Of a stretch of DNA of 64,000 nucleotides, positions 17,026 through 53,687 are shown in pieces. The notes below the pieces were generated by a model that searched no databases, was not told where the DNA came from, and saw nothing but the letters and a program-made list of their open reading frames with translations. Numbering within the stretch: the stretch's first letter is position 1; each line of letters begins with the position of its first letter. Source of the stretch: Conexibacter woesei Iso977N (GTDB lineage: Bacteria > Actinomycetota > Thermoleophilia > Solirubrobacterales > Solirubrobacteraceae); assembly GCF_000424625.1 (NCBI RefSeq), contig NZ_AUKG01000001.1:434001-498000 (forward strand), written 5' to 3'. The position numbers and the translations under genes are program-made.

Positions 17026-17031
17026 GCGCAC

Positions 17032-35136: not shown

Positions 35137-35143
35137 CCGGGGC

Positions 35144-35149
35144 ATTGTA
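35144..35149 (-). promoter_or_regulatory. Leaderless -10 element of CapD-like gene
   Basis: TACAAT on the minus strand, 7 nt before ATG 35136. This makes the upstream ATG 35145, which overlaps the hexamer, unlikely as start. Confidence 0.6.
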
Positions 35150-35164
35150 GGACGCCAGGCGGCC

Positions 35165-35192
35165 TCAAGACGCCGCTGAGAGCGACCGATCA
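35165..35192 (+). promoter_or_regulatory. Sigma-28-like promoter of Gfo/Idh/MocA gene
   Basis: TCAA (35165-35168), 16-nt spacer, ACCGATCA (35185-35192), identical in its -10 to the promoters of two glycosyltransferase genes. It ends 9 nt before ATG 35202. Confidence 0.6.
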
Positions 35193-38054: not shown

Positions 38055-38056
38055 GC

Positions 38057-39148
38057 TCAGGCCGCCGCGGAGACGCCGGCGCGGACCGCTTCGGCGACCT
38101 CGGCGATCTGCTCGTCGCGCAGCGCGGCGGACATCGGGATCGCGAGGTGCGTGCGGGCGGCCTCGTCGGTCCCGGGCAGCGGGACGCGCGGCGCGTAGGG
38201 CGCCATCGGCGGCTGTGCGTGCACGGGCGTCCGGTAGTAGGCGCGTGCGCCGATCCCGGCGTCCGCCAGCGACGCGGCGAGCGCGTCGGCCGCCGCGTGG
38301 CGGATCACGTAGAGGTGCCACGCCGGCCGCGAGCCCGGCGTGGGCACCGGGACCTTCACCACGCCGTCGAGCAGCTCGGCGTACCTGTCCCCCGCCTCCG
38401 CGCGCGCGGCCGCCCACCTGTCCAGCTGCGGCAGCTGCACGCGCAGGATCGCGGCCTGCAGCTCGTCGAGCCGGCTGTTGTAGCCGATGTCGACGTAGTC
38501 GACCTTGTCCTCGGAGCCGTGGAAGCGCAGCGTCCGGACCCGCTCGGCCAGCGCCGCGTCGCGGCACGTGATCGCGCCGCCGTCGCCCATCGCGCCCAGG
38601 TTCTTCGACGGGTAGAACGAGAACGTCGCGATCGTCCCCAAAGCACCAGGCCGCCCGGCCGGCGACGTCGAGCCCGCGGCCTGCGCCGCATCCTCCAGGA
38701 CCGGGACGCCGAGCGCCTCGATCTCCGCCACCGGCGCGACGTTGCCGAACAGGTGGACGACGATGACCGCCTTGGTCTTCTCCGTCATCACCGCCTTCAC
38801 GCTGTCGACCGTCACGCACATCGTGTCCGGGTCGACATCGCAGAACACCGGCACCGCGCCCGTCGGCGGGATCGCCTCGGCGCTGGCCCAGAACGTGAAC
38901 GACGGCACGATCACCTCGTCCCCCGGCCCCACGCCCAGAGCGCGCAGCGCGACCGTGATCGCCTCGGTCCCGTTGGCGACGCCGACCGCATGCTGCGCGC
39001 CGACGTAGGCGGCGAACTCGGTCTCGAACGCCGCCACCTCCGGCCCGAGCACGAAGTGCCCGGAGTCGAGCACGCGGTGGACCGCGGCGCGGATGTCCGC
39101 GCGCAGCGGGGCCTGCGACGCGAGGGGGTCGAAGAGCGGGACCGGCAC
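38057..39148 (-). CDS. DegT/DnrJ/EryC1 sugar aminotransferase
   Basis: PLP-dependent aminotransferase that converts a keto-sugar nucleotide to an amino sugar. 363 aa from GTG 39148; GTG 39154 is within 2 nt of the -10 and so unlikely. Seen: FDPLASQAPLRADIRAAVHRVLDSGHFVLGPEV, VGVANGTEAITVALRALGVGPGDEVIVPSFTF, DAAQAAGS (Asp binding PLP) and catalytic Lys182 in FSFYPSKNLGAMGDGGA. Likely partner of the CapD-like dehydratase, giving a 4-amino-4,6-dideoxy sugar. Followed 2 bp later by the DUF354 gene. An amino sugar of this kind would be a good acceptor for an aminoacyl group from the carrier-protein operon (inference). Confidence 0.92.
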   Translation of the reverse strand: MPVPLFDPLASQAPLRADIRAAVHRVLDSGHFVLGPEVAAFETEFAAYVGAQHAVGVANGTEAITVALRALGVGPGDEVIVPSFTFWASAEAIPPTGAVPVFCDVDPDTMCVTVDSVKAVMTEKTKAVIVVHLFGNVAPVAEIEALGVPVLEDAAQAAGSTSPAGRPGALGTIATFSFYPSKNLGAMGDGGAITCRDAALAERVRTLRFHGSEDKVDYVDIGYNSRLDELQAAILRVQLPQLDRWAAARAEAGDRYAELLDGVVKVPVPTPGSRPAWHLYVIRHAAADALAASLADAGIGARAYYRTPVHAQPPMAPYAPRVPLPGTDEAARTHLAIPMSAALRDEQIAEVAEAVRAGVSAAA

Positions 39149-39156
39149 GGTCACGC

Positions 39157-39162
39157 AGCCTA
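39157..39162 (-). promoter_or_regulatory. Leaderless -10 element of DegT gene
   Basis: TAGGCT on the minus strand, 8 nt before GTG 39148; only 2 nt before GTG 39154, which decides the start. Confidence 0.5.
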
Positions 39163-39193
39163 GCCCGCCGCGCGGAGCCGACGGCCCGGGCGC

Positions 39194-40414
39194 CTACGCG
39201 GGCGCGACCAGCGCGTCGCGGTTGGCGCGGGCGCCGTCGTCGGCGGGGTCGACGAAGAGCGCGAGCTCCAGGCACTCGGCCGCGCGGGGGAACGCTTCGA
39301 GGGCGTGGTACACGACGCCGAGGTCGTTCCAGACGCCGGGCAGGCTCGGCGCCACCGCGGTCGCCGTCTCGATCAGCCGGGCGGCGCCGATGGCGTCTCC
39401 GGCCTCGAAGCGGGCCACGCCGGCGGCATGCAGCGTTCTGGCCTCGACGTCCAGCCCGAGCCTGCGCAGGCCGGCGTCGAGGTCATTCAGGACGTCGGGG
39501 CGCTGCTGGTCCCGAGCGAGCTGCCACAGGATCACGCGGAGCTCCCGGCACTGCGGGAACCGGCGCACGACCTCGGCGAGGCGCTCGATCGGCACGCGCC
39601 GCCACTGCGACAGGCCCAACCCGTCGCGGTAGAGGCCGTTGAGCGACTCCCCGAACTCCGCCTCCGTGAGGCCGAGGTGCAGGACGTCGTCGTAGAGCTT
39701 CGTGAAGTGCAGCGTGAGGTACTCGTGCGCGACATCGGCCCAGCCGATGTCGGTGCAGCCCAGGACGCCATGCTCGCCCGCGACCACGCACGGCCCCTGC
39801 AGGCCGGCGCGGAAGAACCAGAGGAGCGGCAGGTACGCGTTCTCCGCCGTCGTGGCCGCGTGCGCGTCGCGCAGCGCGTCGGCGCGGACGATCGACGCCG
39901 ACAGGAACGTCAGGTACTGGTGCTGGTCGCGCCACAGCGCGCCCGGATCCGGGTGGACCTGGGCCGCGCCGGTGACCGGCGTCCAGTGCGTGACGACGCC
40001 GTCGGCCGCGGCGCTGAGGTACGGGTGGAACAGCCATGCGGGACGGTGCTCGCGCAGCAGCGCGGCCGTCCGCTCGATCGCGCCCGGCAGCGGCACGTCG
40101 TCGTCGCCGAAGCACCACAGGTACTCGGCATCCGGCGCGTGCTCCATCAGCCAATGGCCGTTGGCGAACGGTCCGATGTTCTCGGGCTGGCGATGCACGC
40201 GCAGCCATGGCAGCCGCACGCTCGCAGCCGCCAGGATCTCCGGCGTCGCGTCCGGCGACGCGTTGTCGGCGACCTGGACGATGATGTCGTCGCGATCGCC
40301 GATCTCGCGCTCGAGCGCCTCGAGCAGGCGCTCCAGCAGCGGTGCCCGGTCGTACGTCGGGACCAGCAGGCCGAGCAGCGCTCGCTGCGCCGTGGCGGGA
40401 GAGGGAGCGTCCAC
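39194..40414 (-). CDS. Glycosyltransferase family 2 with TPR-like tail
   Basis: 406 aa. Residues 14-115 are a GT-A domain (LLVPTYDRAPLLERLLEALE, VQVADNASPDATPEIL, ENIGPFANGHWL, CFGDDDVPLPGAIE with the D-D-D metal site). Middle region has HPYLSAA and WFFRAGLQGP acceptor-side helices. From about 320 to the end lie helical repeats (LIETATAVAPSLPGVWNDLGVVYHALEAFPRAAECLELALFVDP), a TPR-like pair known for binding protein partners. Preceded by TCAA-N15-ACCGATCA ending 7 nt before the GTG, a sigma-28-like promoter. I infer a flagellar-regulon glycosyltransferase, possibly acting on flagellin. Confidence 0.84.
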   Translation of the reverse strand: MDAPSPATAQRALLGLLVPTYDRAPLLERLLEALEREIGDRDDIIVQVADNASPDATPEILAAASVRLPWLRVHRQPENIGPFANGHWLMEHAPDAEYLWCFGDDDVPLPGAIERTAALLREHRPAWLFHPYLSAAADGVVTHWTPVTGAAQVHPDPGALWRDQHQYLTFLSASIVRADALRDAHAATTAENAYLPLLWFFRAGLQGPCVVAGEHGVLGCTDIGWADVAHEYLTLHFTKLYDDVLHLGLTEAEFGESLNGLYRDGLGLSQWRRVPIERLAEVVRRFPQCRELRVILWQLARDQQRPDVLNDLDAGLRRLGLDVEARTLHAAGVARFEAGDAIGAARLIETATAVAPSLPGVWNDLGVVYHALEAFPRAAECLELALFVDPADDGARANRDALVAPA

Positions 40415-40421
40415 ATCATGG

Positions 40422-40448
40422 TGATCGGTCCTGCGCCGGGTCGCTTGA
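40422..40448 (-). promoter_or_regulatory. Sigma-28-like promoter of GT2-TPR gene
   Basis: Minus strand: TCAA (40448-40445), 15-nt spacer, ACCGATCA (40429-40422), 7 nt before GTG 40414. The 12-mer GGTGATCGGTCC here (plus strand) recurs at 43554-43565 before another glycosyltransferase. Confidence 0.6.
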
Positions 40449-40507
40449 GCGTTCAGGTACGTGCGCGGTCGGCCGGCCGCTGCCGAACGCGGCAGCAGGC
40501 GAGGCGG

Positions 40508-43500
40508 CTACGCCGCCGCGACGGCGGGCCGCGCGAGCACGCCGGCGAGCTGCTCCGGCCGGACGGCGAGCGCCAGGTCGCCGAGCCGGGCACCGTCCTC
40601 GCCGGCGAGGATCAGGCAGGCGACCAGCTCGCCGAGGCCGTCTGCCGCGCCGGTCTTGCGCGGCGACGGGACGTCGGCAGCGGCGATCGCCTCGACCGCC
40701 TCCTCCACGCTGAGGGATCCCGCGAGCGGGAGGTGGTGGAGCAGCCGCCGCGCCGCCTCGCCGGCGTGCGCCAGCAGCTGCGCGCGATCGGGCCGCTCCA
40801 GATGCCGAGGGCGCTCGAGCCCGACCGTGTAGGAGCGGCGCGTCAGGAAGTCGTCGTTCAGGCGCGCGGCCGGGATCAGGTGGCCCACAGCGCCCGCGAT
40901 CACGTAGCGCGTCGCGCCGAGGCCGCGGCGCTGGACCTGCCAGGCGACCGAGACCTCCTCGCCGCCGATGCGGGCGTCAGGGCCCACGCCGAGCTCCGGA
41001 TCGAAGCCGCCGGCGGCGAGCAGGACCGAGCGCCTGGCGCCCCAGTTGCCGCCATAGACGATCTTGGGCGCCACCAGCGACAGGTCGGCGTCGCCGTGGT
41101 CGAGGACGCCGTAGAAGGGCTCGAGCCGCGGCGCGGGCCAAGCGGGATCGCGCTCCTGCGGCCACAGCCCGACGATCGGTCCGCCGGCGATCGCGACGCC
41201 GTCGCGGGCGAGCTCGCGCGCCAGCGCGGCGGCCCAGCCGGGTGCGATCCGCGCGTCGTCGTCGAGGTAGATCAACAGCTCGTGCGATGCCGCGTGGGCG
41301 CCGGTGTTGCGGGCGATCGACAGCCCGGCGCGCGGCTCGTCGACCACGCGCACCGCCGGATGGCGCTCGGCGAGCGCGGCGAGGACGTCCGGCGTCGCGT
41401 CGGTCGAGCCGTTGTCGACCACCACGATCTCCGCGACCCCCTGTCCGACGACCTGCTCGACGCAGCCTTCGATGATGTCCGCCCGGTCGCGCGTGCAGAT
41501 GATCACCGAGCAGTCGGGCATGGCGGCGCGATCGACGGCCGCTCCGGCCACGGCCACGACAGGACCCCGGTCCGAGACCCAGCCGGCGAGCTGGCGCTCG
41601 GCGTGCCCCTCGCGCGACGGCCAGTGCGGCGGCATCGCGCGCCACGTCTCGCGCCGCGCGGCCAGCGCGTCGAACGGCAGCGCAGCGGGACGTTCGCCGC
41701 CGCCCAGCGGCCAGAGCGCGCCGGCGGGGTCGACCGACAACCCGAGCGCACCGTCGACCGCCGGGCCGGCGAGGGCGGCGCCGGCCTCGACGGCGTCGAT
41801 CAACGGCGCGGCGAATCCGGCACGCGGGAGCGCGTGCGGCTCGAGGACGATCAAGATGTCCGCCTCGGTCGCGTTGACCGCGCGCAGCTGGGCGAGGCGG
41901 CGGCCGGCGCCCCGCGGCAGCGCGACGTGGCGCACTCCGGCGGGCACCGGGTCGGCCGACAGCGCGAGCAGCTCTGCGTCCGCGCCGGCCCCCGAGGCGA
42001 GCAGCGCCTCGAGCTGGAGCCGGGCGGCGTCCGGGTCGTCGGGCAGGTGGACGGCAACGGCGGCACGCGGTGCTCCCGCCGCGGCGGCCGGCGCGCGTGC
42101 CGGCTCGGGGAGGGCCGGCGTGTCGACCAGGACGGCGCCGCGGGGCGCTGGCGCGTCTCGCCGCCAAGGCGTCACGGCGACGTCGGGGATCGCCTCGGGG
42201 TCGCGCCCCATGGCGGCGAGCGCCGCGAGCAGGCGCCCGAGCAGCGCCTCGGCGTCGTCGTCGACCGGGAACACGAGCGAGGTGGGCGCGTCGGTCGGGA
42301 AGCGCCCCACGTAGTCCTCCAACAACGCGCGCAGCCCGTCGTCGTCGAGGTCGTGCGGCGCGATGTAGCGCTCCGGCACCGAGGCGGTCAGCCCGCGCAG
42401 CGCGCGGCGCGCCACGGCCGGCGACAGCCGCGCCTCCAGGCCGGCGCGCCCGGCCGCGCCGATCGCGCGCCACAGCGCGTCGTCGCAGTGCAGGGCGACG
42501 ATCGCGTCCGCCAGCCCCTGCGGATCGTCGACCACGAGCGCGTGCTCGCCGTCGACGAGGCCCATGCCCTCGGCGCCGATCGTCGTCGTGACGACCGGGA
42601 CGCCGTGCGCCATCGCCTCGCCGATCTTGCCCTTCACGCCGGCGCCGTAGCGCAGCGGGGCGACCGAGACGCGCGCGGCCTCCAGCAGCGGCGCGATCGC
42701 CGGAACCCAGCCGGTGACCTCCACGCCGTCGCCGGCCAGCGCGCGGACCTCGGGCGGCGGCGCGCCCCCGGCCAGCGTCAGCCGCGCTTCGGGGAGGACG
42801 GCGCGCACGCGCGGCCAGACCTCGCCGACCAGGAACAGCGCCGCGTCGACGTTCGGCGCGTGGCGGAAGTTGCCGACGAACAGCGCGCCTTCGCGCGCCT
42901 GCGGCCCCGGGCCCTCGGGCTCCTCGGGATGGACGAGGGAGATGACCGCGACCGGGACCTCGGGCGCCAGCGCGCGCAGCGCCGCGGCGTCGTCCTCGCT
43001 GACGGCGATCAGCCCGTCGGCGGCGCCGTAGGCGGCGGCCTCGCGGTCGCGCGTGCGGACCGCGGCGTCGGCCAGCGCGGGGCTCGCCGCGACCTCGGCC
43101 GCGCGCGCCTCGCGCACCCAGTGGACGTCGACCGTGTCGACCAGCAGCCGCGCGCCCGGCGCCCAGCGGCGCAACAGCGGCAGGTAGGCCTCGGCGACGT
43201 CGAAGAACGAGAGCCAGACCACGTCCGGCCGGACGTCGCGCAGCAGCCCTTCCAGGTCCAGCTCCGGCCGGCCCGCGCGCTGCGCGAGCGGCGAGCGGAC
43301 CGGATCGCCGAGCGTCACCCGGACGCCCATGGCCTCCAGCGCCAGCGCCGCGTCGTGCTGGCCGTCCTCCGCGCCGTCGCGCGCCACGAGCGTCACGTCG
43401 TGCCCCTCGGCGCGCAGCAGCTCGATCAGCCGCAGCTGGCGCAGCGACCCGGCGTCGCGATCGCCCGGCGGGGCGATCTTGCTGATCATGAGGATCGAGC

Positions 43501-43546
43501 ACGGCGCGGCCGCGCCCGTGCGGGGCGATGGCGATGGGAGGGACAT
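40508..43546 (-). CDS. Giant GT4-GT2 fusion glycosyltransferase
   Basis: 1012 aa from ATG 43546. Residues about 20-375: GT-B group 1 domain (ILMISKIAPPGDRDAGSLRQLRL, GALFVGNFRHAPNVDAALFLVGEVWP, APLRYGAGVKGKIGEAMAHGVPVVTTTIGAEGM). Residues 400-680: Ala-rich, probably a second inactive GT-A-like module. Residues 690-930: canonical GT2 (MPDCSVIICTRDRADIIEGCVEQVV, VVDNGSTDATPDVL, LIYLDDDARIAPGW with DDD). No membrane segment. Preceded by TCAA-N16-ACCGATCA. Its size and multi-module plan resemble flagellin-glycosylation enzymes that build a glycan stepwise on protein. Divergent from another fused glycosyltransferase. Confidence 0.85.
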   Translation of the reverse strand: MSLPSPSPRTGAAAPCSILMISKIAPPGDRDAGSLRQLRLIELLRAEGHDVTLVARDGAEDGQHDAALALEAMGVRVTLGDPVRSPLAQRAGRPELDLEGLLRDVRPDVVWLSFFDVAEAYLPLLRRWAPGARLLVDTVDVHWVREARAAEVAASPALADAAVRTRDREAAAYGAADGLIAVSEDDAAALRALAPEVPVAVISLVHPEEPEGPGPQAREGALFVGNFRHAPNVDAALFLVGEVWPRVRAVLPEARLTLAGGAPPPEVRALAGDGVEVTGWVPAIAPLLEAARVSVAPLRYGAGVKGKIGEAMAHGVPVVTTTIGAEGMGLVDGEHALVVDDPQGLADAIVALHCDDALWRAIGAAGRAGLEARLSPAVARRALRGLTASVPERYIAPHDLDDDGLRALLEDYVGRFPTDAPTSLVFPVDDDAEALLGRLLAALAAMGRDPEAIPDVAVTPWRRDAPAPRGAVLVDTPALPEPARAPAAAAGAPRAAVAVHLPDDPDAARLQLEALLASGAGADAELLALSADPVPAGVRHVALPRGAGRRLAQLRAVNATEADILIVLEPHALPRAGFAAPLIDAVEAGAALAGPAVDGALGLSVDPAGALWPLGGGERPAALPFDALAARRETWRAMPPHWPSREGHAERQLAGWVSDRGPVVAVAGAAVDRAAMPDCSVIICTRDRADIIEGCVEQVVGQGVAEIVVVDNGSTDATPDVLAALAERHPAVRVVDEPRAGLSIARNTGAHAASHELLIYLDDDARIAPGWAAALARELARDGVAIAGGPIVGLWPQERDPAWPAPRLEPFYGVLDHGDADLSLVAPKIVYGGNWGARRSVLLAAGGFDPELGVGPDARIGGEEVSVAWQVQRRGLGATRYVIAGAVGHLIPAARLNDDFLTRRSYTVGLERPRHLERPDRAQLLAHAGEAARRLLHHLPLAGSLSVEEAVEAIAAADVPSPRKTGAADGLGELVACLILAGEDGARLGDLALAVRPEQLAGVLARPAVAAA

Positions 43547-43555
43547 CACTCCGGG

Positions 43556-43583
43556 TGATCGGTCCCCTCCGCGCACGCCTTGA
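43556..43583 (-). promoter_or_regulatory. Sigma-28-like promoter of GT4-GT2 fusion gene
   Basis: Minus strand: TCAA (43583-43580), 16-nt spacer, ACCGATCA (43563-43556), 9 nt before ATG 43546. An ATCAC/GTGAT hairpin overlaps the -10 and the start. Confidence 0.6.
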
Positions 43584-43627
43584 GGCGCGCCCGCGCAGGG
43601 GGACAGCGCGCGCGTGGACACGCGTCC

Positions 43628-43655
43628 TCAAGAGCGCTCGGCCGGATGCCGACCA
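43628..43655 (+). promoter_or_regulatory. Sigma-28-like promoter of GT2-CgeB-type gene
   Basis: TCAA (43628-43631), 16-nt spacer, GCCGACCA (43648-43655), 8 nt before ATG 43664. One mismatch (C for T) in the -10. It excludes ATG 43646 as start, since that codon lies inside the spacer. Confidence 0.5.
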
Positions 43656-43663
43656 CCGGAGGG

Positions 43664-46012
43664 ATGTCCTCCCTCCCACTCGTGAGCGTGGTCGTCGCCA
43701 CGTACAACCACGAGCGCTTCGTCGCGCTCGCGCTCGACAGCGTCCTCGCTCAGGAGCCGTGCGGCGGCGAGGTCGAGATCGTCGTGATCGACGACGGCTC
43801 CACCGATGGGACACCGGACGTCCTGGCCCGCTACGGCGACCGCATCCGGGTCGTTCGCCAGGAGAACGCCGGCCACCTCGGCGCCTTCAACCGCGGGCTG
43901 GCCGAGGCACGCGGCACCTACATCGCGCTGCTCGACGGCGACGACGAGTGGGTGCCGAGCAAGCTGCGCCGCCAGGTCGCGATGCTCGAAGCCGACCCGG
44001 GGCTCGGGCTCGTCTACGGCGACGCGGTGCTGATCGACGGCGACGGCCAGGAGATCCACCCGTCCTACCAGGCCTACAACGGCGTGGAGTTCCGCTCCGG
44101 CCACCTCGCCGCCTTCGGCTACCTCATGTGCCACAACATGGCGCAGACCTCGACGATCATCGTCCGGTCCTCGCTGCGCGAGCACTACGCCCCGATCCCC
44201 GACTGGGGCCGCGCCCAGGATTGGTGGATCGCCGTGCAGGTCGCGCGGCGGACCGCGGTCGCGCCGGTCGGCGGCCACGTCGTCCGCTATCGCAAGCACG
44301 ACGACAACCTCGCGCTCGGGCGCGGGCCGCGCCGGTTCGCCGAGCTGCGCGCCAAGGAGATCCCGCTGCGACGCTGGATGTTCTCCCAGGCGCGCGAGAT
44401 CGACGTCGCGATGGAGGACATGGTCGGCGCCCTCTACGCGTTCCACCACTGCGTCGCCGTCGCGTCCCGGGATCTCGGCATCCCCGCCGCGGAGCTGGCG
44501 CCCGATCACGTCGAGCGCGCGAACGCGGCGAACGAGCGGCTGGCCGACGCGGTCGCCGCCGAGCGCCGCGGCGACGACGAGCGCGCCATCCGCGAGGCGC
44601 TCGCGGTCCTGGCCGACTTCCCGCGCGACGCGCACGCGGGCGCGGTGCTGGAGCGGAGCTCGCGGCGCCTGATGCGGGCCCAGCCCATCGTCGAGGAGCG
44701 CCCCGACGAGAGCGCCTGGCCCCTGGAGGAGGCGCGGTCGTTCGTGACCGTCGCCGCCGTCGAGGAGCTGGCCGCCCACCCCGAGCTGCTCACCACCTAC
44801 GCCGAGGCCTTCGACGCCGGCGCGGACGCCACCCTGGCCGTGCACCTGCCCGACGACGCGAGCGTCGCGGTGCTGCTGGGCGCGCTGGAGGCGGCGGGCG
44901 TCTCGGCCGAGGACGGCCCCGACCTGCTCGCCCTGCAGCATCCGCACGCCGAGCCGCTGGAGGCCGCGCTGGCGCGCCACGCCCACGCGGTCCTGAGCGC
45001 CGGGCCGGTGCCCGCCCGCTTCGAGGGCCGCCCGCACGCGGCCGACGCGCCGTCGCTGCGCGCGCTGGCGCGCGAGCGCTGGGAGGTCGAGCCGCTCGAC
45101 ATCGCGATCAAGATCTGCCCGCCCAACTGGATCGGCGCCGAGCACTGGGGCGACACGCACTTCGGGCGCGCCGTCGCCGACGAGCTGCGCCGCCGCGGCC
45201 ACCGCCCGCGCCTGGAGGTCGTCCGCGAGTGGGACACCGACGCGCCGGCCGACGTCGCGCTGCACCTGCGCGGGCTGTGGCAGTACGTGCCGCGCCCGGG
45301 TCAGGTCAACCTGCTGTGGGTGATCAGCCACCCCGAGCTCGTGACGGGCGGCGAGTGTGACCGCTACGACCACGTCTTCGTCGCCTCGGCACCCGACGCC
45401 GAGCGGCTGTCCAAGTTGACCTCCACACCGGTCAGCGTGCTGGAGCAAGCGACGGATCCGGCCGTGTTCTTCCCCGAGCGCGACGACGCGCTGGCCCACG
45501 AGGTCACGTTCGTCGGCAACTCGCGCGGTGTGCTGCGCCGCTCGCTCGCTGGGCTGCTGCCCACCGAGCGCGACGTCGCCGTCTGGGGCAAGGACTGGGA
45601 CCGCCTGATCGACACGCGGCACGTGATCGGCGAGTACCTGCCCAACGACGAGGTCCGCCGCGCCTACGCAAGCGCGGGCGTGCTGCTCAACGACCACTGG
45701 GACGACATGCGCGAGCAGGGCTACATCTCCAACCGCGTCTTCGACGCGTTGGCCGCAGGCGCCGTCCTGCTCAGCGACGACGTGCCCGGGCTGGCCGAGC
45801 GCTTCGGCGACGCGGTCGCCACCTACGCGAGCGACGAGGACCTGCGCGTCGCGGTGGACCGCCTGCTCGCCGACCCCGAGGCCGCCGCGGCGATGGCCCG
45901 CCGGGGTCGCGCGCTGATCCTCGCGGAGCACACGTTCGGCCACCGTGTGGACACGATCCTGGCGCATGCGACCGAGCTGCGCGCGGCACCGGTCCTGGCG
46001 CTCGCCGCCTAG
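43664..46012 (+). CDS. Giant GT2 plus CgeB-like glycosyltransferase
   Basis: 782 aa from ATG 43664. Residues 1-220: GT2 (PLVSVVVATYNHERFVALALDSVL, VVIDDGSTDGTPDVLARY, YIALLDGDDEWVPSKLRRQ). Middle: helices and an Ala-rich linker with an HLPDDASVAVLLGALEAAGV module also seen (as HLPDDPDAARLQLEALLA) in the divergent fusion, so both derive from a common module. Residues 500-782: CgeB-type GT-B domain (VNLLWVISHPELVTGGECDRYDHVFVAS, EVTFVGNSRGVLRRSLAGLLP, VLLNDHWDDMREQGYISNRVFDALAAGAVLLSDDVPGL). CgeB-like proteins glycosylate spore or flagellar surface proteins. Sigma-28-like promoter upstream. Probable flagellin or filament glycosyltransferase; the sugar is unknown. Confidence 0.84.
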   Translation: MSSLPLVSVVVATYNHERFVALALDSVLAQEPCGGEVEIVVIDDGSTDGTPDVLARYGDRIRVVRQENAGHLGAFNRGLAEARGTYIALLDGDDEWVPSKLRRQVAMLEADPGLGLVYGDAVLIDGDGQEIHPSYQAYNGVEFRSGHLAAFGYLMCHNMAQTSTIIVRSSLREHYAPIPDWGRAQDWWIAVQVARRTAVAPVGGHVVRYRKHDDNLALGRGPRRFAELRAKEIPLRRWMFSQAREIDVAMEDMVGALYAFHHCVAVASRDLGIPAAELAPDHVERANAANERLADAVAAERRGDDERAIREALAVLADFPRDAHAGAVLERSSRRLMRAQPIVEERPDESAWPLEEARSFVTVAAVEELAAHPELLTTYAEAFDAGADATLAVHLPDDASVAVLLGALEAAGVSAEDGPDLLALQHPHAEPLEAALARHAHAVLSAGPVPARFEGRPHAADAPSLRALARERWEVEPLDIAIKICPPNWIGAEHWGDTHFGRAVADELRRRGHRPRLEVVREWDTDAPADVALHLRGLWQYVPRPGQVNLLWVISHPELVTGGECDRYDHVFVASAPDAERLSKLTSTPVSVLEQATDPAVFFPERDDALAHEVTFVGNSRGVLRRSLAGLLPTERDVAVWGKDWDRLIDTRHVIGEYLPNDEVRRAYASAGVLLNDHWDDMREQGYISNRVFDALAAGAVLLSDDVPGLAERFGDAVATYASDEDLRVAVDRLLADPEAAAAMARRGRALILAEHTFGHRVDTILAHATELRAAPVLALAA

Positions 46013-46067
46013 CCGGCGCGGAGGATCCTCTCCGGCGACGTTCAGGCCCCGCTCAGGTCGGGTCCCC

Positions 46068-46073
46068 TACGCT
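46068..46073 (+). promoter_or_regulatory. Leaderless -10 element of dedA-uppP-purM operon
   Basis: TACGCT ending 8 nt before ATG 46082. Confidence 0.5.
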
Positions 46074-46081
46074 GTCGGGCG

Positions 46082-46744
46082 ATGCCGATCGCCGCGCTGC
46101 TCGTCCTCGCGTCCGTCACCGAGAAGCTCGCCGACTTCGCCACCAGGGTCGTCGGCGATCTCGGCCTGCCCGGGATCTTCCTGCTGATGGTGCCCGAGAG
46201 CGCGCTGATCCCGATCCCGTCGGAGGCCACGATGCTCTTCGCCGGGTTCAACGTCAGCGAGGGCAAGTACTCGCTGTTCGCGGCCGTCGCGACCGGCGTG
46301 GTCGCCAACGTGATCGGCTCGTCGATCGCCTACGCGATCGGCTACTACGGCCGCCTGGAGCTGCTGGAGCGCCACAGGGTCTTCCACGTCAAGCCCGAGC
46401 ACCTGGCGCTGACCGAGCGCTGGTTCGAGCGCTGGGGCTCGGCCGCGGTGTTCTTCTCGCGGATGCTGCCGATCGTCCGGACGTTCATCTCGCTGCCCGC
46501 GGGCGCGGCCCGGATGCCGTTCGGGCGCTTCATCGTGCTGACGTTCGCCGGCTGCGTGCCGTGGATCCTGGGGCTGACGCTCGTCGGCAAGGCCGCGCGC
46601 GACAACTGGACCGACTGGAAGGACCGGCTGCACTACGTCGACTACGCGGTCGCGGTGCTGATCGTCCTGGCCGTCGTCTACTTCGGCCAGCGCTGGTGGC
46701 GCGCACGCCGCGCGCGGCGCCTCGCAGCGGCCGATGCGGCCTAG
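46082..46744 (+). CDS. DedA family membrane protein
   Basis: 220 aa, 4-6 helices plus a re-entrant loop. Conserved DedA blocks: LGLPGIFLLMVPESALIPIPSEATMLFAGF (membrane-embedded E and P), GYYGRLELLERHRVFHVKPEHLALTERWFERWGSAAVFFSRMLPIVRTFISLPAGAARMPFGRF, with the Arg-Arg/Gly-Ala pattern of the family. Bacterial DedA proteins include UptA, an undecaprenyl-phosphate flippase, so this is a good candidate for recycling the lipid carrier. It overlaps uppP by 11 bp, which strengthens that reading. C-terminus WWRARRARRL is basic and cytoplasmic. Confidence 0.9.
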   Translation: MPIAALLVLASVTEKLADFATRVVGDLGLPGIFLLMVPESALIPIPSEATMLFAGFNVSEGKYSLFAAVATGVVANVIGSSIAYAIGYYGRLELLERHRVFHVKPEHLALTERWFERWGSAAVFFSRMLPIVRTFISLPAGAARMPFGRFIVLTFAGCVPWILGLTLVGKAARDNWTDWKDRLHYVDYAVAVLIVLAVVYFGQRWWRARRARRLAAADAA

Positions 46745-47504
46745 CGGCCCGGGACTTCCTGTCGCACACGCCGTGGCGCTGGGCGCGCTGCACGGCCCGG
46801 CGGAGCTGGTGCCGGTCTCGTCGAGCGCGCACGTCGCGCTGATCCCGCAGCTGCTCGGATGGCCGAGCGCGGAGCTCGACGATGACGTCCGCAAGGCGTT
46901 CGAGGTCATGCTGCACGCGGGGACGCTCGGCGGGTTGTTGGTGCTGATCCCACGCCCGTCGCTCGCGTGGGCCGTCGTCGCCACGGCGCCCGCCGCGGTC
47001 CTCGGGTTCACGCTGGAGAAGCCGATCGAACGGCGCCTCGGCGGGACGCGGGCGACGGCGGCCGGGCTGCTGCTGGGCTCGGCGGTGCTGGTGACCGCCG
47101 ACCGACATGGTGGAGAACGCCCCGCCGCCGACGCGACGCTCTTCGACGCGCTCTGGCTCGGCCTCGCGCAGGCGTGCGCGCTGTGGCCGGGCGTGTCACG
47201 CCTCGGGCTGACGGTGGCCGCCGCGCGGCTGCGCGGGTTCTCGCGCGAAGCGGCGTTCGACCTCGGGCGCCGCGCGGGCCTGCCGGTGATCGCCGGCGCC
47301 ACCGGGCTGAAGGTCGTGCGGCTGGCCCAGCGCCCGCCTGCGCGCGAAGTCCGGACCGCGTTCGCCGCCGGGATGGCCGCAGCCTTGGTCTCGACGCTCG
47401 CGGCGGCGCCGCTGCGCCGCGCGACGTCGATCGCCGCACCCGCCGCCGAGCGCGTCGCGCTGGCCGCCGCCGCCCTGACGCGTCTGCGACGATCCCCAGC
47501 ATGA
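46734..47504 (+). CDS. uppP: Undecaprenyl-diphosphatase
   Basis: 256 aa, about 8 helices, BacA/UppP family: dephosphorylates undecaprenyl diphosphate to regenerate the carrier for peptidoglycan and glycan synthesis. Seen: ALGALHGPAELVPVSSSAHVALIPQLLGW (the (E/Q)-x-x-PxSS-x-H motif) and LAQACALWPGVSRLGLTVAAARLRGFSREAAF (the second PGxSR motif). Start ATG overlaps the dedA 3' end by 11 bp, and its stop overlaps the purM start (ATGA). The pair dedA-uppP would couple phosphatase and flippase steps of lipid-carrier recycling; the wide envelope-glycan setting needs much carrier. Confidence 0.9.
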   Translation: MRPSGPGLPVAHAVALGALHGPAELVPVSSSAHVALIPQLLGWPSAELDDDVRKAFEVMLHAGTLGGLLVLIPRPSLAWAVVATAPAAVLGFTLEKPIERRLGGTRATAAGLLLGSAVLVTADRHGGERPAADATLFDALWLGLAQACALWPGVSRLGLTVAAARLRGFSREAAFDLGRRAGLPVIAGATGLKVVRLAQRPPAREVRTAFAAGMAAALVSTLAAAPLRRATSIAAPAAERVALAAAALTRLRRSPA

Positions 47505-48556
47505 GCGATGCTTACGCCGCCGCCGGCGTGGACACGGATCAGGCCGACGCGGGCGTCGGGGCGCTCGTCGCGGTCCTGAAGACGATCGAGACCGGCAGCC
47601 CGTCGCGCTCGGTCGTCCCGTCCGGCCACTACGCGTCGGTGCTGAAGGTCAGCGACGACCTCGGGATCGCGATCGCGACCGACGGCGTCGGCAGCAAGCT
47701 CGTCGTCGCCGAGGAGGCCGACCGGCTGGAGACCGTCGGGATCGACTGCGTCGCGATGAACGTCAACGACCTGATCTGCGTCGGCGCCGAGCCGATCGCC
47801 CTTGTTGATTACCTTGCGGTCGAGCAGGTCGACGCCGGGCGCCTGGCGCGCATCGGCCAGGGCCTGAAGGTCGGCGCCGAGGCCGCGGGCACCGAGGTGC
47901 CGGGCGGCGAGCTGGCCGTCCTGCCCGAGCTGATCCGCGGCCACCCGTCGCCGCACGGCTTCGACCTCTGCGCTACCGCGATCGGCACCGTCAGGTTGGA
48001 CGACCTGGTCCTCGGCGACCGCATCGCCCCCGGCGACGCGCTGATCGGCGTGCCCTCGTCCGGGCTGCACTCCAACGGCTACACCCTGGCCCGCCGCGCG
48101 CTGCAGGTCGATGGCGGCCTGACGCTCGACGACACGCCGGAGGAGCTGGGCGGCGCGTCGGTCGCCGACGCGCTGCTGGAGCCGACGGTCATCTACGTCC
48201 GCGCGGTCCTGGAGTTGTTGAAGTCCTCGGTCGACGTCCGCGGCCTGGCCCACATCACCGGTGGCGGGTTGAACAACATCCTGCGCCTCGGCCGCGGCTA
48301 CGAGATCAGCGACCCGCTGCCGAGCCCGCCGGTCTTCGACCTCGTCGCGCGCCTCGGCGACGTCCCCGTCGCCGAGATGTGGGAGGTCTTCAACATGGGC
48401 TGCGGCTTCATCGCGATCGTGCCGGAGGCCGACGCCGACGAGGCCGCGCGGATCCTCGCCTCGCACCACGAGGGCGCACGGCGGATCGGCACCGTGACCG
48501 ACCGGGACGGGACCGTCACGGTCCCGGGTCTGGGGCTCACCTTCCCGTTGCGCTGA
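47501..48556 (+). CDS. purM: Phosphoribosylformylglycinamidine cyclo-ligase
   Basis: 351 aa, AIR synthetase, fifth step of de novo purine synthesis, ATP-dependent cyclisation in the cytoplasm. Seen: YAAAGVDTDQADAGVGAL, IATDGVGSKLVVAEEADRLETVGIDCVAMNVNDLICVGAEPIALVDYLAVEQVD, PGDALIGVPSSGLHSNGYTLARRAL, AHITGGGLNNILRL and VFNMGCGFIAIV, all PurM signatures. ATGA overlap with uppP implies co-translation, an odd functional partner. Its 3' end overlaps the convergent glycosyltransferase gene by 20 bp. The identification is very safe. Confidence 0.96.
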   Translation: MSDAYAAAGVDTDQADAGVGALVAVLKTIETGSPSRSVVPSGHYASVLKVSDDLGIAIATDGVGSKLVVAEEADRLETVGIDCVAMNVNDLICVGAEPIALVDYLAVEQVDAGRLARIGQGLKVGAEAAGTEVPGGELAVLPELIRGHPSPHGFDLCATAIGTVRLDDLVLGDRIAPGDALIGVPSSGLHSNGYTLARRALQVDGGLTLDDTPEELGGASVADALLEPTVIYVRAVLELLKSSVDVRGLAHITGGGLNNILRLGRGYEISDPLPSPPVFDLVARLGDVPVAEMWEVFNMGCGFIAIVPEADADEAARILASHHEGARRIGTVTDRDGTVTVPGLGLTFPLR

Positions 48557-51500
48557 CCGCGGGCGCGGTCGCCAGGAACGCGGCGATGGCGCCTGCGTCG
48601 GGCGCGACGACGGCGTTGCCGGCCGCGCGGGCGCGGCGGGCGTGGCCCTCGGAGGCGCCGTGCAGCGGCACGAACGCGTCGGTCGCCGCCGCCAGCGCGG
48701 CGTCGCGCCCGGGCGTGGCGTGCAGGAACCGCACCTCGATGTCGGCGCACGCGTCGAGATCGGCGCCGGCCGCGGCGGCCGCCGCGACGATGTGCCCCTC
48801 GACGCCGGCGGCATCGCCGTCCTGGCCGGGATCGGCGACGAGCACGAGGGTCGCGGGGGTGCCGCTCGGCGCGGCCTGCGCCCACGCGGCCAGCAGGTCG
48901 GCGAGCCGGTCGGTCCCGCGGTAGGCCGGGACCGCCAGCAGCCGCAGCCGATCGTCGTCGTCCTCCAGCCCGAGGTCGACGTCCGGCGTCCGGGCGATGC
49001 GCGCGGGGCGCTCGCTGAGCGCCTTCAGGCGCTCCGCGTAGCGGGCCGACACCGCGTCCCAGCCGAGCTGCGCGGCGGCGGCGCGGCCGGCGACACCGCG
49101 GCGCGCGCGCTCCTCAGCGGACGTCTCGGCGACCTCGCGCAGCAGGCGCGTCAGGTCGGCGGCGTCGGGCTCCAGCATCCAGCCGTCGCCGGCCAGCGCC
49201 ATCCCGGAGATCTGACGGCCGGGGATCAGCGCGCGCTGCGAGGCGATCCGCCAGCCCGCCTCCGGCGGGCAGAACTCGTCGGTCGGACCGCCGCCGGTGA
49301 GCAGCACGGGGCGCCCGCAGGCCATCGCCTCCAGCACCGGCATCGCGAAGCCCTCGCCGCGATAGGGGTGCACGAGGACGTCACAGGCGCGGTAGAGCGC
49401 GGAGACCTCCGCATCGCTCAGCGTCTCGGTGAGGTGCACGACGCGCGGCCCGTCCGGATCGGCGGCCAGGCGCTGCAGCTCGGCCCGGTCGCCACCGCGG
49501 TAGACGCCCTCGGCGCCGAAGTCCTTGACGATCAGCGTGACGTCGTCGGCGCGCGTGAACGCCGCCTGCCAGGCACCGAGCAGGACGTCGATGCCCTTAC
49601 GGCCGATCGCGCCGCCGACGAAGAGGAACCGGGTGCCGGGCGCGCGGTCGCCGAGGTCGTAGGCCGGGCCCTCGGGCGCGAAGGCGTCGAGGTCGACGCC
49701 GTTGGGCACGACCGCGACGCGATCGGCCTCCACGCCGGAGCTGACGTACATCTCGCGCACGTGCTCGGATGGCACCCACAGCTCGTCGACCACGGTGTTC
49801 AGCGGGCCGACCCACGCCTCGGGGACCGCGCCGAACTCCCAGGGCTGGATCAGCGCGAGGTGGCCCGAGGCGGGCGGCCGGAGGTCCGGCGGCCACTGGT
49901 GGCGCACCTCGACGTCGGCCGCGTGCGGCAGCGGCGAGGACGCGACCGGGCGATCGGTCGCCGCGGCGCGGACGGTCAGCTCGGGGTCGCCGGCCAGGCC
50001 GGCCACGACGCTGCGGTTGATGCGGGCCAGCGACGTCGGTGCGTCGTGCTCGCCGACCCACGACACCGCCAGCGGCGGCTCGTCGTGCACGCGCGACGGG
50101 CGTGCGCCGCCGTAGTAGGCCTCGAGCTCGTCGACGTAGGCCGCGAAGCCGCGCGGGGCGGCGATGTTGGATTGCAGGCGCTCCAGCAGCCCGGCCTCGC
50201 CGGCCAGGCGCTCCAGCGCGACGGTCAGCTGCGCCTGGTCGCCGCCGTCGAAGGCGAGGCCGTCGACCCCGTCCTCGATCGCGTCGGCCAGGCCGCCCAT
50301 CCGCGGGGAGAGCAGCGGCACCCGCGCGGCGAGGCACTCGCCCGCGACCAGCGGGGCGCAGTCCCACCACAGCGACGGCAGGGCGGCCGCGTCGACGCGC
50401 GCCAGCAGGTCCGGCAGCTCGGTCGGCTCGAACTTCCCGTGCAGCTCGACCAGGCCGCGCCGGTCCAAGCGGCGCAGCTCGTGCGCCATGCGGTCCGGGA
50501 TCTCGCCGTGGACGTGGACACGGATCTCGGCGGCGACCGCCTGCGCCGCGGCGACGAGCAGCTGCGCGCCCTTGTGCGGGTAGACGGAGCCGAAGAACCC
50601 GACATGTAGCACTTGGTCGTCGAGGCGGCCCGGCACGCGGTCGCGCCCGACGCGCTCCCACGCTTCGTCCTCGGCCGGCACGCACTGGCGCACGACGTCG
50701 AGCGCCGCGGCCGGGTAGCCCTGGTCGACCAGCGTGCGCCGCACCCCGTGCGAGACGGTCAGGCAGGCGCCGATCGCGCGCGAGAAGGCCTCGCGGATCC
50801 CGGCGAGCCGGGCCTGGTGGCCGCCGACGTCGTGGCTGCCGACGCACGCGGCGCAGTCGCCACCCGCGTCGCCGGGCCCGCCGCACAGGCTCTGATCGCC
50901 GCGCAGCAGGTACGCGCGCGGGCAGGCCAGCCAGTAGTTGTGGGTGGTGAAGTACGACGGGATCCCCCGCGCCGCGGCGGCGTCCAGCAGCGCGGCACCG
51001 AGGTTGTGCAGGTTGTGGAAGTGGATGACGTCGGGCCGCTCGCGATCGAGCAGGTCGGCGAACGCCGCCGTGATCGGCGGGTCGTCGAGCTCGCGCTCCG
51101 GCGCGCCGAGGTCGAGCAGGCCGTGCGCGCGGTTGTGCACGCCGACGAGGCGGACGCCGTCCTCCTCCCACTCGCGGATCGCGTAGGGGACGCCTGACGG
51201 GTCGGGCGCGACGGCGGCGTGGAAGACGACGACGTCCCAGCCGCGGCGGACGAGCTCCTTGGCGGCGAAGCGCGGGAGCATCGTCCCGCCACCGGAGTCG
51301 TTCCACCCGAAGGCGGTCATCACGAGCTTGCCCTTGTCGCGCCTGGGCGCGGGGGCCACGGGGAGCGCGGCGGCGCGGCGCTGCAGCTCGGAGGCCACGC
51401 GCGGCAGGGCCGGCGTGCGAGCCGCCGCGACGCCGGCCAGCAGCTCCAGCGCCCGGCGCCGGGCCGCGTCGGGATGCAGGATCGGCCAGTCGAGCTCCGG

Positions 51501-51971
51501 GACGAGGTCACGCAGCGTGACGTCGCCGCCGTCCAGCGCAGCCAGCAGCGCGGCGCCCTGACCGGCGGCGTCCTGGCCGGCGCGCGCGTCGGCCGCGGCG
51601 GAGGTGCGAACGACCGGCTCGCCCTCGACGTGGTGCACGGGCGCCACGGCGGCGGCGCGCAGGATGAAGTTGTAGGGGTCGTCCAGCGCGCTGCGCCCGA
51701 GCGCGTCGAGCACGTCGCGGCGGACCAGGAACGATCCGGCGGCCACGGCCCGCTCGCCACGCCAGGCCCGGCGGATCAGCGCGGGCCCGGTCGCACGTGC
51801 GCCCGCGCGGCGGCCGCGCTCGCGACCCTCGTCGTCGACCAGCAGCGCGTCGCCGTGGACGAGGCCGGCGCCGGGATGCGCGGCGGCCGCGGCGAGGAGC
51901 CGCTGAAGGCCGTCGGCGGTCCAGGCGTCGCCCGGCGCGAGGACGACGACCGGCTCAGCCGAGGCGGACAA
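48537..51971 (-). CDS. Giant multi-domain glycosyltransferase, tandem GT4
   Basis: 1144 aa from TTG 51971, the only reasonable start; it overlaps the CHAP amidase stop by 17 bp, so it is read from the same mRNA. Residues 1-190 look like the C-terminal half of a GT2 (VVVLAPGDAWTADGL, GLVHGDALLVDDEG, GSFLVRRDVLDALG); the nucleotide-binding half and DxD are missing. Then two GT-B modules: about 215-600 (MTAFGWNDSGGGTMLPRFAAKELVRRGW, FFGSVYPHKGAQLLVAAA, LPSLWWDCAPLVAGECLAARVPLLS) and about 640-985 (RFLFVGGAIGRKGIDVLLGAW, DVLVHPYRGEGFAMPVLEAMACGRPVLL). The C-terminal 150 residues are an Ala/Asp-rich module. Its place after a flagellar amidase and beside flagellin suggests filament glycosylation. 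Confidence 0.83.
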   Translation of the reverse strand: MSASAEPVVVLAPGDAWTADGLQRLLAAAAAHPGAGLVHGDALLVDDEGRERGRRAGARATGPALIRRAWRGERAVAAGSFLVRRDVLDALGRSALDDPYNFILRAAAVAPVHHVEGEPVVRTSAAADARAGQDAAGQGAALLAALDGGDVTLRDLVPELDWPILHPDAARRRALELLAGVAAARTPALPRVASELQRRAAALPVAPAPRRDKGKLVMTAFGWNDSGGGTMLPRFAAKELVRRGWDVVVFHAAVAPDPSGVPYAIREWEEDGVRLVGVHNRAHGLLDLGAPERELDDPPITAAFADLLDRERPDVIHFHNLHNLGAALLDAAAARGIPSYFTTHNYWLACPRAYLLRGDQSLCGGPGDAGGDCAACVGSHDVGGHQARLAGIREAFSRAIGACLTVSHGVRRTLVDQGYPAAALDVVRQCVPAEDEAWERVGRDRVPGRLDDQVLHVGFFGSVYPHKGAQLLVAAAQAVAAEIRVHVHGEIPDRMAHELRRLDRRGLVELHGKFEPTELPDLLARVDAAALPSLWWDCAPLVAGECLAARVPLLSPRMGGLADAIEDGVDGLAFDGGDQAQLTVALERLAGEAGLLERLQSNIAAPRGFAAYVDELEAYYGGARPSRVHDEPPLAVSWVGEHDAPTSLARINRSVVAGLAGDPELTVRAAATDRPVASSPLPHAADVEVRHQWPPDLRPPASGHLALIQPWEFGAVPEAWVGPLNTVVDELWVPSEHVREMYVSSGVEADRVAVVPNGVDLDAFAPEGPAYDLGDRAPGTRFLFVGGAIGRKGIDVLLGAWQAAFTRADDVTLIVKDFGAEGVYRGGDRAELQRLAADPDGPRVVHLTETLSDAEVSALYRACDVLVHPYRGEGFAMPVLEAMACGRPVLLTGGGPTDEFCPPEAGWRIASQRALIPGRQISGMALAGDGWMLEPDAADLTRLLREVAETSAEERARRGVAGRAAAAQLGWDAVSARYAERLKALSERPARIARTPDVDLGLEDDDDRLRLLAVPAYRGTDRLADLLAAWAQAAPSGTPATLVLVADPGQDGDAAGVEGHIVAAAAAAGADLDACADIEVRFLHATPGRDAALAAATDAFVPLHGASEGHARRARAAGNAVVAPDAGAIAAFLATAPAVSATGR

Positions 51972-52623
51972 AGCCCGTCGCCCCGTCGCCGGTGCTGTCG
52001 TGCACCCGCCGCGTGACCATGTTGGAGGAGTTGCCCTCGACCGTGTGGATCTTGCCGTCGGAGTCGACGGACTCGACCATGCCGACGTGCTCGCCGCCCC
52101 AGACGATCAGGTCGCCGGGCTGCGGCGCCTGGCCGGCGGCGGCGGGCGTGAAGCGCCCGGTGCGCTGCGCCCAGGACGACAGCGCCGAGACCGAGCCGAA
52201 GCCCTGCCCGGCCTCGCCGACCGGCGCGCCGGCCTGCTTGGCGGCCCAGGAGACGAAGTACGCGCACCACGGGCCGATCCCGCTGCCGGCGGTGGCCGTG
52301 CGGTACTCGGCGATCCGCGGCGAGTCGTTGGAGCCGGGCGGCTGCTCGGTCTGGCCGATCTCGCCCTCGGCGACCTGCAGGGCGCGCTGGCCCGCGGTCT
52401 GCCCGGTCGTGTCCGTCGCGGTTGCCGCGCCGGACACGCCTGAGCTGAAGCTGGTGCCGGTCGCTGCGGTGCCCGAGGCACCGGTGACGCCGGCGGATGA
52501 TGTTGCGTCCTGCAGCGTGGAGGCGAACGCGGTCGACGACGTGCCCGTCGTCGAAGGTTCGGTCTGCGGCAGCAGTCCCTGCTGCAGCTGGGTGATCCGC
52601 GCCATCACGGTCTCCACGCTCAT
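51955..52623 (-). CDS. CHAP-domain flagellar peptidoglycan hydrolase
   Basis: 222 aa. The N-terminus VMARITQLQQGLLP is the short R-I-x-x-I/L-Q motif of actinobacterial flagellar-locus wall hydrolases. Then a 60-residue Thr/Ser/Ala linker and a CHAP amidase domain: GIGPWCAYFVSWAAKQAG (catalytic Cys), PGDLIVWGGEHVGMVESVD (catalytic His) and HTVEGNSSNMVTRRVH. No classical signal peptide, so export through the flagellar apparatus is likely. Inferred role: opens the wall for the rod, in place of FlgJ. Promoter TGAA-N15-GCCGACAA lies 9 nt upstream; a GGGGA adjoins the ATG. Confidence 0.82.
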   Translation of the reverse strand: MSVETVMARITQLQQGLLPQTEPSTTGTSSTAFASTLQDATSSAGVTGASGTAATGTSFSSGVSGAATATDTTGQTAGQRALQVAEGEIGQTEQPPGSNDSPRIAEYRTATAGSGIGPWCAYFVSWAAKQAGAPVGEAGQGFGSVSALSSWAQRTGRFTPAAAGQAPQPGDLIVWGGEHVGMVESVDSDGKIHTVEGNSSNMVTRRVHDSTGDGATGFVRLG

Positions 52624-52632
52624 TCCCCACAG

Positions 52633-52659
52633 TTGTCGGCGGGCTTCGCGTGTTCTTCA
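52633..52659 (-). promoter_or_regulatory. Sigma-28-like promoter of CHAP amidase operon
   Basis: Minus strand: TGAA (52659-52656; one mismatch from TCAA), 15-nt spacer, GCCGACAA (52640-52633), 9 nt before ATG 52623. Confidence 0.45.
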
Positions 52660-53659: not shown

Positions 53660-53687
53660 TGATCGGCGGCCCATAACCCCCGCTTGA
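53660..53687 (-). promoter_or_regulatory. Sigma-28-like promoter of flagellin
   Basis: Minus strand: TCAA (53687-53684), 16-nt spacer, GCCGATCA (53667-53660). The -10 matches the FliA consensus GCCGATAA in 7 of 8. A small CCCC/GGGG hairpin overlaps the -35 and may end the upstream operon. Confidence 0.75.

Follow-up and report, generated by a model that had tools for sequence, protein, structure and literature searches.

What do the four glycosyltransferase (GT) genes at positions 39194-51971 of the 64-kb window (the whole stretch of DNA analysed here, G000:C1:434001-498000, part of the 5.7-Mb Thermoleophilia genome of Conexibacter woesei Iso977N) modify? They lie downstream of the gene for a flagellin of 269 amino acids (aa), between flagellar genes (52.7-64 kb) and polysaccharide-type genes (7-36 kb). 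Sequence data suggest, with a probability of roughly 0.78, that the region is a flagellin-glycosylation island that would assemble an O-linked oligosaccharide on flagellin while this is still in the cytoplasm. The indications that the GTs belong to the flagellum are strong, because GT and flagellin genes share promoter motifs, the GTs occupy a slot beside flagellin, their relatives co-occur with flagellin, and one of their GT4 domains is found at flagellar loci elsewhere; we infer that flagellin itself is the sugar acceptor. The same motifs, position, co-occurrence and GT4-domain loci support the proposal of the initial annotation that these enzymes are flagellin modifiers.

Organization of the glycosyltransferase island

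The four GT genes were found at the positions and on the strands first assigned to them, and all four reading frames are open. Together with their flagellin-side neighbours they comprise:
39194-40414, minus strand: GT2 with a weak C-terminal TPR, 406 aa (Pfam), heading a run with the DegT aminotransferase and DUF354 genes
40508-43546, minus strand: GT4-(middle module)-GT2 fusion, 1012 aa from the ATG at 43546, or 993 aa if from 43489 (Pfam)
43664-46012, plus strand: GT2-helical-CgeB/Glyco_trans_1_2 fusion, 782 aa (Pfam; AlphaFold model)
48537-51971, minus strand: remnant GT2, GT4, GT4 and C-terminal module, 1144 aa, TTG start (Pfam; orthologue alignment)
48942-50021, minus strand: second GT4 domain of the 1144-aa protein (residues 651-1010) with a QPWEFG signature, found at flagellar loci of several phyla
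51955-52623, minus strand: CHAP-domain protein with a conserved place between the flagellin gene and the GTs (Pfam CHAP, 52.9 bits)
52748-53557, minus strand: flagellin, 269 aa, D0/D1 only (Flagellin_N 157 bits, Flagellin_C 98 bits)

The first three GT genes are contiguous, and DedA, UppP-like and PurM genes set the fourth apart. The block also holds the DegT aminotransferase and DUF354 genes. On the flagellar side, flagellin is accompanied by a conserved 146-aa protein, PilZ, FlhF, FlhA, FlhB, FliR, FliQ, FliP, FliO, FliN, FliL and a MotB-like protein, all names other than flagellin being by-eye readings of translations. The GC content of the block (38001-52000) was 0.736-0.770 in 2-kb windows, higher than in most of the remaining window.

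As first described, the flagellin has only D0/D1 and a Ser/Thr-rich middle: residues 140-205 contain 23 Ser/Thr out of 66, compared with 16 out of 66 in the second flagellin of the genome. This region is probably the acceptor site, judging from its composition.

Promoter motif and putative regulon

Five perfect copies of a FliA/WhiG-type motif, TCAAG-N15/16-CCGA(T/C)CA, were found in the 64 kb, compared with a mean of 0.05 in 100 dinucleotide shuffles, none of which reached five. They precede flagellin (TCAAG-N16-CCGATCA), three GT genes and a Gfo/Idh oxidoreductase gene, and a degenerate copy precedes the CHAP gene (distances in nucleotides, nt):
35165-35192, plus strand: motif of the Gfo/Idh gene (pattern match)
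40422-40448, minus strand: motif of the GT2-TPR gene, 7 nt ahead of its GTG start
43556-43583, minus strand: motif of the GT4-GT2 gene, 9 nt ahead of the ATG at 43546
43628-43655, plus strand: motif of the GT2-CgeB gene, 8 nt ahead of the ATG at 43664
52633-52659, minus strand: two-mismatch copy, TGAAG-N15-CCGACAA, before the CHAP-GT pair, 9 nt upstream of the CHAP gene
53660-53687, minus strand: motif of flagellin (pattern match)

The initial annotation had put every GT gene under, or in an operon with, a sigma-28-like promoter. This held for flagellin and three GT genes, which have perfect motifs, whereas the gene for the 1144-aa protein overlaps the CHAP gene, which has only the two-mismatch copy; the CHAP genes of several relatives carry a copy with 0-1 mismatch. 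The start of the GT4-GT2 gene had been set at 43621 and was moved to the ATG at 43546, 9 nt past the motif. Start codons of the GT2-TPR, GT4-GT2, GT2-CgeB and Gfo/Idh genes all come 7-9 nt after the motif, and the predicted mRNAs would therefore be leaderless. The canonical motif TAAA-N14-16-GCCGATA had no match in the window.

Because the motif was first recognised by eye in the intergenic stretches ahead of flagellin and the GT genes, and counted afterwards, its presence before these genes is not independent evidence; independent tests were provided by the other sites in the genome, by relatives and by a reversed-pattern control. Genome-wide, 24 perfect sites were found compared with a single one for the reversed pattern, 10 of them inside predicted genes and 14 outside. 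The outside sites precede the four island genes, flagellin, a flagellar hook/rod-type protein, HD-domain and GGDEF proteins, and genes for PilT and for prepilin-peptidase-like, RTX-repeat, lipoprotein-like, 150-aa and threonine-synthase-like proteins (the hook/rod, prepilin-peptidase-like, lipoprotein-like, 150-aa and threonine-synthase-like names were given by eye, the prepilin-peptidase-like protein having no NCBIfam match). At the loci of relatives, the motif (at most one mismatch) preceded 9 of the 25 GT genes within 14 kb of flagellin and 26 of 801 other genes, while the reversed motif preceded 0 of 25 and 2 of 801, respectively. Genes cut at their start by the end of a stretch were left out of these counts, and GTs were recognised by resemblance to seeds from the window, six further genes being assigned manually; the contrast is understated, since the other genes still include unlabelled GTs and flagellar genes.

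The flagellar cluster includes a FliA/WhiG sigma factor gene (TIGR02479, 212 bits, cut-off 190), and we infer that the motif is a working promoter. Together, these sites suggest a leaderless FliA/WhiG regulon that would join flagella, pili and cyclic di-GMP (c-di-GMP). In Rubrobacter, type IV pili, and probably c-di-GMP enzymes, are reported to be under WhiG control via a flagellar-type consensus (PMC8325347); the motif set found here resembles that one, with the addition of flagellin and the GTs. Among the loci extracted with the motif at position 1501, which contain the HD-domain (L061), RTX-repeat (L064), GGDEF (L068), prepilin-peptidase-like (L074) and PilT (L075) genes, four of the five genes start 9-11 nt after the motif.

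Flagellin neighbourhoods in related genomes

Flagellin was present in 26 of 61 related genomes, and the flagellin neighbourhoods of relatives were annotated with seeds from the window. A recurring gene order, FlhB-FlhA-FlhF-PilZ-flagellin-CHAP-(variable slot)-PurM-UppP-DedA-DegT-DUF354-(Gfo)-CapD, was found chiefly in the family of the window. The slot beside flagellin held GTs in many of the inspected flagellated relatives, of differing types and often with the motif, including GT2-GT4-GT4 proteins (at least 1197 aa in G004, 1263 aa in G001), a GT4-GT2 fusion (G002), a GT2-CgeB protein of 906 aa (G016, matching contig), a GT-methyltransferase fusion (G008) and a TPR-GT2-TPR protein (G024). 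Island content varied even among close relatives, with G000, G001, G002 and G004 differing from one another.

Relatives of the 1144-aa protein (E ≤ 1e-40) occurred in 8 of the 61 genomes, all 8 flagellated. At the same threshold, relatives of the GT2-CgeB protein were detected in 13 genomes (12 flagellated) and those of the GT4-GT2 protein in 7 (6 flagellated). The Fisher tests ignore relatedness, and some of the matches cover one domain only. A Thermoleophilia metagenome-assembled genome (L152, 1751-9197) carried a GT2-TPR homologue, a GT2/GT4 fusion and a GT2-GT4-GT4 gene contiguously, so that three of the four GTs can move as a set.

The pseudaminic-acid genes PseB and PseG, scoring over their curated cut-offs, were found near the flagellins of G017 and G015, either in the stretch that holds the flagellin or no more than about 25 kb away, and the G017 locus also carries NeuB/PseI-type and DegT genes. 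In G017 (L099, L100), nine tandem flagellin genes adjoin PseB, PseG, NeuB-type and cytidylyltransferase-like genes.

The second GT4 domain at flagellar loci of other phyla

A scan of a named-genome collection with an alignment of the 1144-aa family returned 68 loci, of which 38 contained flagellar-specific genes. The proportion was 33 of 60 without the eight near full-length loci with Thermoleophilia or Actinomycetota titles (L145-L152), these 60 being more distant loci picked solely through GT similarity, and 26 of 36 when, again without these eight, only loci with at least 8 kb of flank were counted. In the controls, flagellar genes occurred in 1 of 40 fixed-position 15-kb regions and in 0 of 20 generic GT2 loci, all from flagellated relatives. 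The former were placed at round coordinates in flagellated relatives and not in the distant phyla; the latter were hand-picked in list order from long contigs of flagellated genomes, skipping short or unknown contigs and leaving out loci of the 1144-aa family. All flagellar seeds came from this genome, so distant flagellar genes may be missed, and MotA, CheA and FliI were not scored as flagellar.

By record title, the positive loci belonged mostly to Verrucomicrobiota, and also to Ignavibacteria/Melioribacteraceae, Anaerolineae, Latescibacteria, Handelsmanbacteria, Acidimicrobiia and other Actinobacteria. Open frames with the GT4 domain had a median of 1789 codons and a maximum of 4254, some being cut by contig ends, and six examined frames combined varied sets of GT4, GT2, Glyco_trans_1_2, TPR and methyltransferase domains. 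In a phylum sample of 396 genomes, the domain occurred in 4, 3 of them among the 60 with flagellin.

The nearest flagellar genes at the distant loci were FliC, FlgL, FliW, FliD or FliS, often less than 1 kb away. At several of them FlgL/FliW or FliD/FliS is nearest and not FliC, as would fit an acceptor other than flagellin, such as the hook-associated proteins FlgK/FlgL or the cap protein FliD. For the present island such an acceptor is unlikely, as FliC is the flagellar neighbour of the GTs both in the window and in relatives, and the FlgL gene of this genome is about 42 kb from the window flagellin.

On the basis of genomic position, we tentatively propose, at slightly less than even odds, that the second GT4 domain marks an unnamed cross-phylum family of giant modular GTs dedicated to the flagellum (about 400 to more than 4000 aa). 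Such proteins would carry GT2, GT4, CgeB-type, TPR and methyltransferase modules on one chain and work like assembly lines that make a complete oligosaccharide on flagellar proteins; the Thermoleophilia island would be a split version under a WhiG/FliA regulon common to type IV pili and c-di-GMP enzymes. The domain also offers a sequence marker with which to look for GTs linked to the flagellum in little-studied phyla, Verrucomicrobiota among them.

Alternative targets and contrary observations

Several observations weigh against a flagellin-glycosylation island. The GT block has the flagellar cluster on one side and, on the other, a polysaccharide cluster that includes WcaJ-like, Wzx-like, CapD-like and GT genes (names partly by eye), and the enzymes of the block might serve the exopolysaccharide encoded there (7-36 kb), the proximity to flagellin being accidental. 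This is improbable, because none of the four GT genes on the exopolysaccharide side of the window carries the motif (at most one mismatch) compared with perfect copies for three of the four island GTs, the slot on the flagellin side is conserved, the GTs co-occur with flagellin, and the GT4 domain adjoins flagellar genes in other phyla.

The motif also precedes type IV pilus genes, so the regulon is not purely flagellar. As it stands before PilT and the prepilin-peptidase-like gene, and WhiG control of type IV pili is reported for Rubrobacter (PMC8325347), the GTs might glycosylate type IV pilin, or pilin and flagellin both, through the common sigma factor. We assign this a low probability, given that the GT genes adjoin flagellin and not pilus genes, that their relatives co-occur with flagellin, and that the GT4 domain elsewhere sits by FliC, FlgL, FliW, FliD or FliS.

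Other contrary observations concern single genomes and genes. G006, a flagellated member of the window's genus, has a slot without any GT, and the GTs are therefore dispensable for having a flagellum. No flagellar gene was found within the 18-kb locus around the contiguous trio of L152, and one genome of the phylum sample, G382, carries the GT4 domain but gave no flagellin match. A search of the 60 relatives with the GT2-TPR gene returned nothing at E ≤ 1e-12, and no known type of site-selecting flagellin GT (Maf, FlmG) was recognisable. In particular, the Maf-type, MptE-like family PF01973 had no match in G000 and exceeded its cut-off in only 1 of 61 genomes (G015); the four controls that responded in this search were all archaea, so that its sensitivity was established for archaeal sequences and not for bacterial Maf. 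Flagellin glycosylation nevertheless remains our preferred reading of the island.

Individual glycosyltransferases

The domains first named for the four proteins were recovered by Pfam, except that the TPR of the 406-aa protein (residues 344-399) was weak (TPR_9, 26.5 bits, cut-off 35; Glycos_transf_2, 50.6 bits). This protein, which carries ADNASPDAT and FGDDD motifs, also falls outside the description of the set as giant. Its homologue in L152 (1751-2944; phmmer 6e-104) is GT2 plus TPR by Pfam, with the TPR above cut-off. Orthology with GT2 genes upstream of relatives' flagellins was considered and left unsupported by 22-30% identity (alignment A2).

The GT4-GT2 protein has an orthologue in G002 that is 58% identical over the whole length. 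The GT2-CgeB protein, whose CgeB domain was so named in the initial annotation and is called Glyco_trans_1_2 by Pfam, is 53% identical to part of the 906-aa protein on the CHAP-PurM contig of G016. Its AlphaFold model (9 sequences) had a pLDDT of 79 and a pTM of 0.47; only GT2-type folds were among the 50 PDB matches listed, which did not indicate an acceptor, and PDB sequence searches were likewise uninformative on this point.

The 1144-aa protein does contain the tandem GT4 domains ascribed to it, but the ~150 residues at its N-terminus correspond to just the C-terminal half of a GT2 domain. A whole GT2 stands at the front of the orthologues in G001, G002, G004 and G005, and by this comparison the 1144-aa protein is a truncated GT2-GT4-GT4 enzyme. 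About 80 to 120 GT2 residues are missing, together with the promoter kept in G002, G004 and G005; the CHAP gene runs directly into the GT2 remnant, the start of the GT gene overlapping its end, and the CHAP protein is intact by orthologue alignment. Because of this truncation, the number of active GT domains in the strain is probably one lower than in its relatives. The loss of half a GT2 could also mean that the whole island is decaying and the pathway perhaps partly inactive. We regard this as not likely, since the remaining ~1000 residues are 55-71% identical to orthologues, all four frames are open, and the three other GT2 domains contain D-x-D-type motifs and the second GT4 domain an E-x7-E motif. 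The GT2-GT4-GT4 protein of G002 (L081:6119-9804) is itself split into two overlapping frames of 716 and 582 aa, by a frameshift or a sequencing error.

Proposed pathway and sugar-nucleotide genes

By analogy with the C. difficile GTs, GmaR and FlmG, a working model is proposed in which the order of enzymes and the sugars are conjectural. The FliA/WhiG-type sigma factor would turn on flagellin and the GT genes together, and one enzyme would attach the first sugar to Ser/Thr of the central flagellin region in the cytoplasm. The GT2-TPR protein is our guess for this initiating enzyme, its TPR docking on flagellin. The GT4-GT2, GT2-CgeB and GT4-GT4 proteins might then lengthen the chain by one sugar per domain, and the glycosylated flagellin would be exported and assembled. 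Unusual amino sugars would be provided by the DegT aminotransferase, the Gfo/Idh oxidoreductase and the CapD-type dehydratase, encoded with the DUF354 protein at:
33103-35145, minus strand: CapD-type membrane NDP-sugar dehydratase, a conserved neighbour (PF02719, 356 bits)
35202-36188, plus strand: Gfo/Idh/MocA oxidoreductase, a possible sugar-nucleotide dehydrogenase (PF01408, 53.1 bits)
37050-38054, minus strand: DUF354 protein with weak GT4-like similarity (profile match)
38057-39154, minus strand: DegT/PseC-type sugar aminotransferase (Pfam DegT 360 bits; TIGR03588 219 bits, under the cut-off of 423.5)

The sugar-nucleotide biosynthesis genes of the locus are DegT and Gfo/Idh, and no complete sugar-nucleotide pathway was identified in the 64-kb window. 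A phosphosulfolactate synthase (ComA)-like gene (31211-31963; TIGR03849, 250.6 bits, cut-off 280) adjoins the CapD-type gene and is followed by a phosphoglycerate-mutase-like gene, with similar genes 3' of CapD in G001, G002, G006 and G008 (by eye). Further away, at 15578-18911, genes for a carrier protein and an amino acid:[carrier protein] ligase exceed the cut-offs of NF005480 and NF005479; a TCAAG-N-CCGATA match ends right at the start of the carrier protein gene, closer than a usual promoter would be.

Comparison with known systems

Flagellin O-glycosylation in Gram-positive bacteria was listed for seven genera in May 2026 (PMC13317340). Among the open PMC papers listed by our searches, we found no report of flagellin glycosylation in Actinomycetota or of this giant-GT family, in agreement with the initial impression that such a set was undescribed in Thermoleophilia-type actinobacteria. 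To our knowledge, the seven listed genera are all Bacillota and none belongs to Actinomycetota. The word 'glycosyl' is absent from the text of a survey of actinobacterial flagella (PMC10746217).

The parallels named initially were from Gram-negative bacteria, but others exist: in some respects a closer resemblance is seen to Listeria GmaR and to the C. difficile GTs. GmaR, a 637-residue flagellin GT with a GT domain followed by TPR and an antirepressor domain (PMC9638930), has a similar order to the GT2-TPR protein, whose TPR is under cut-off in the window and over it in the L152 homologue; the 406-aa protein is without a C-terminal antirepressor domain and, with its TPR at 344-399, has no room for one. 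The PDB GmaR chain 22ao matched the GT2 of the GT2-CgeB protein (E = 7e-4). The TPR parts of GmaR and FlmG were proposed or shown to bind flagellin (PMC9638930, PMC7591256). Caulobacter FlmG is likewise a modular flagellin GT that binds flagellin via TPR (PMC7591256), but its layout (N-terminal TPR, GT-B catalytic part) differs from that of the window protein, with GT2 first and a weak TPR last. In C. difficile type B, GT1-GT3 are encoded directly downstream of fliC and build an O-linked oligosaccharide stepwise (PMC5207246); compared by description, the GTs here are also downstream of flagellin, while gene content and domain fusions differ.

Flagellin glycosylation islands of Enterobacteriaceae, Geobacillus and the Clostridium hypervariable region have variable GT and sugar-nucleotide genes in the flagellin locus, with GT2/GT4 in Geobacillus, contents that differ among close relatives and Pse genes in some (PMC4875605, PMC5109656, PMC13317340). 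The present locus resembles them in its GT genes at flagellin, its sugar-nucleotide genes and its variability between close relatives. The GC content is not below that of the surroundings, in contrast to the lower GC reported for the Enterobacteriaceae islands (PMC4875605). It also differs in its fused multi-domain GTs, in the lack of an MptE-like/Maf match in the genome, and in several apparently leaderless genes, each with its own FliA/WhiG-type motif. Such islands being already known, what would be new here is the Actinomycetota host, and a co-regulated Thermoleophilia island would, if the reading is correct, extend flagellin O-glycosylation to that phylum.

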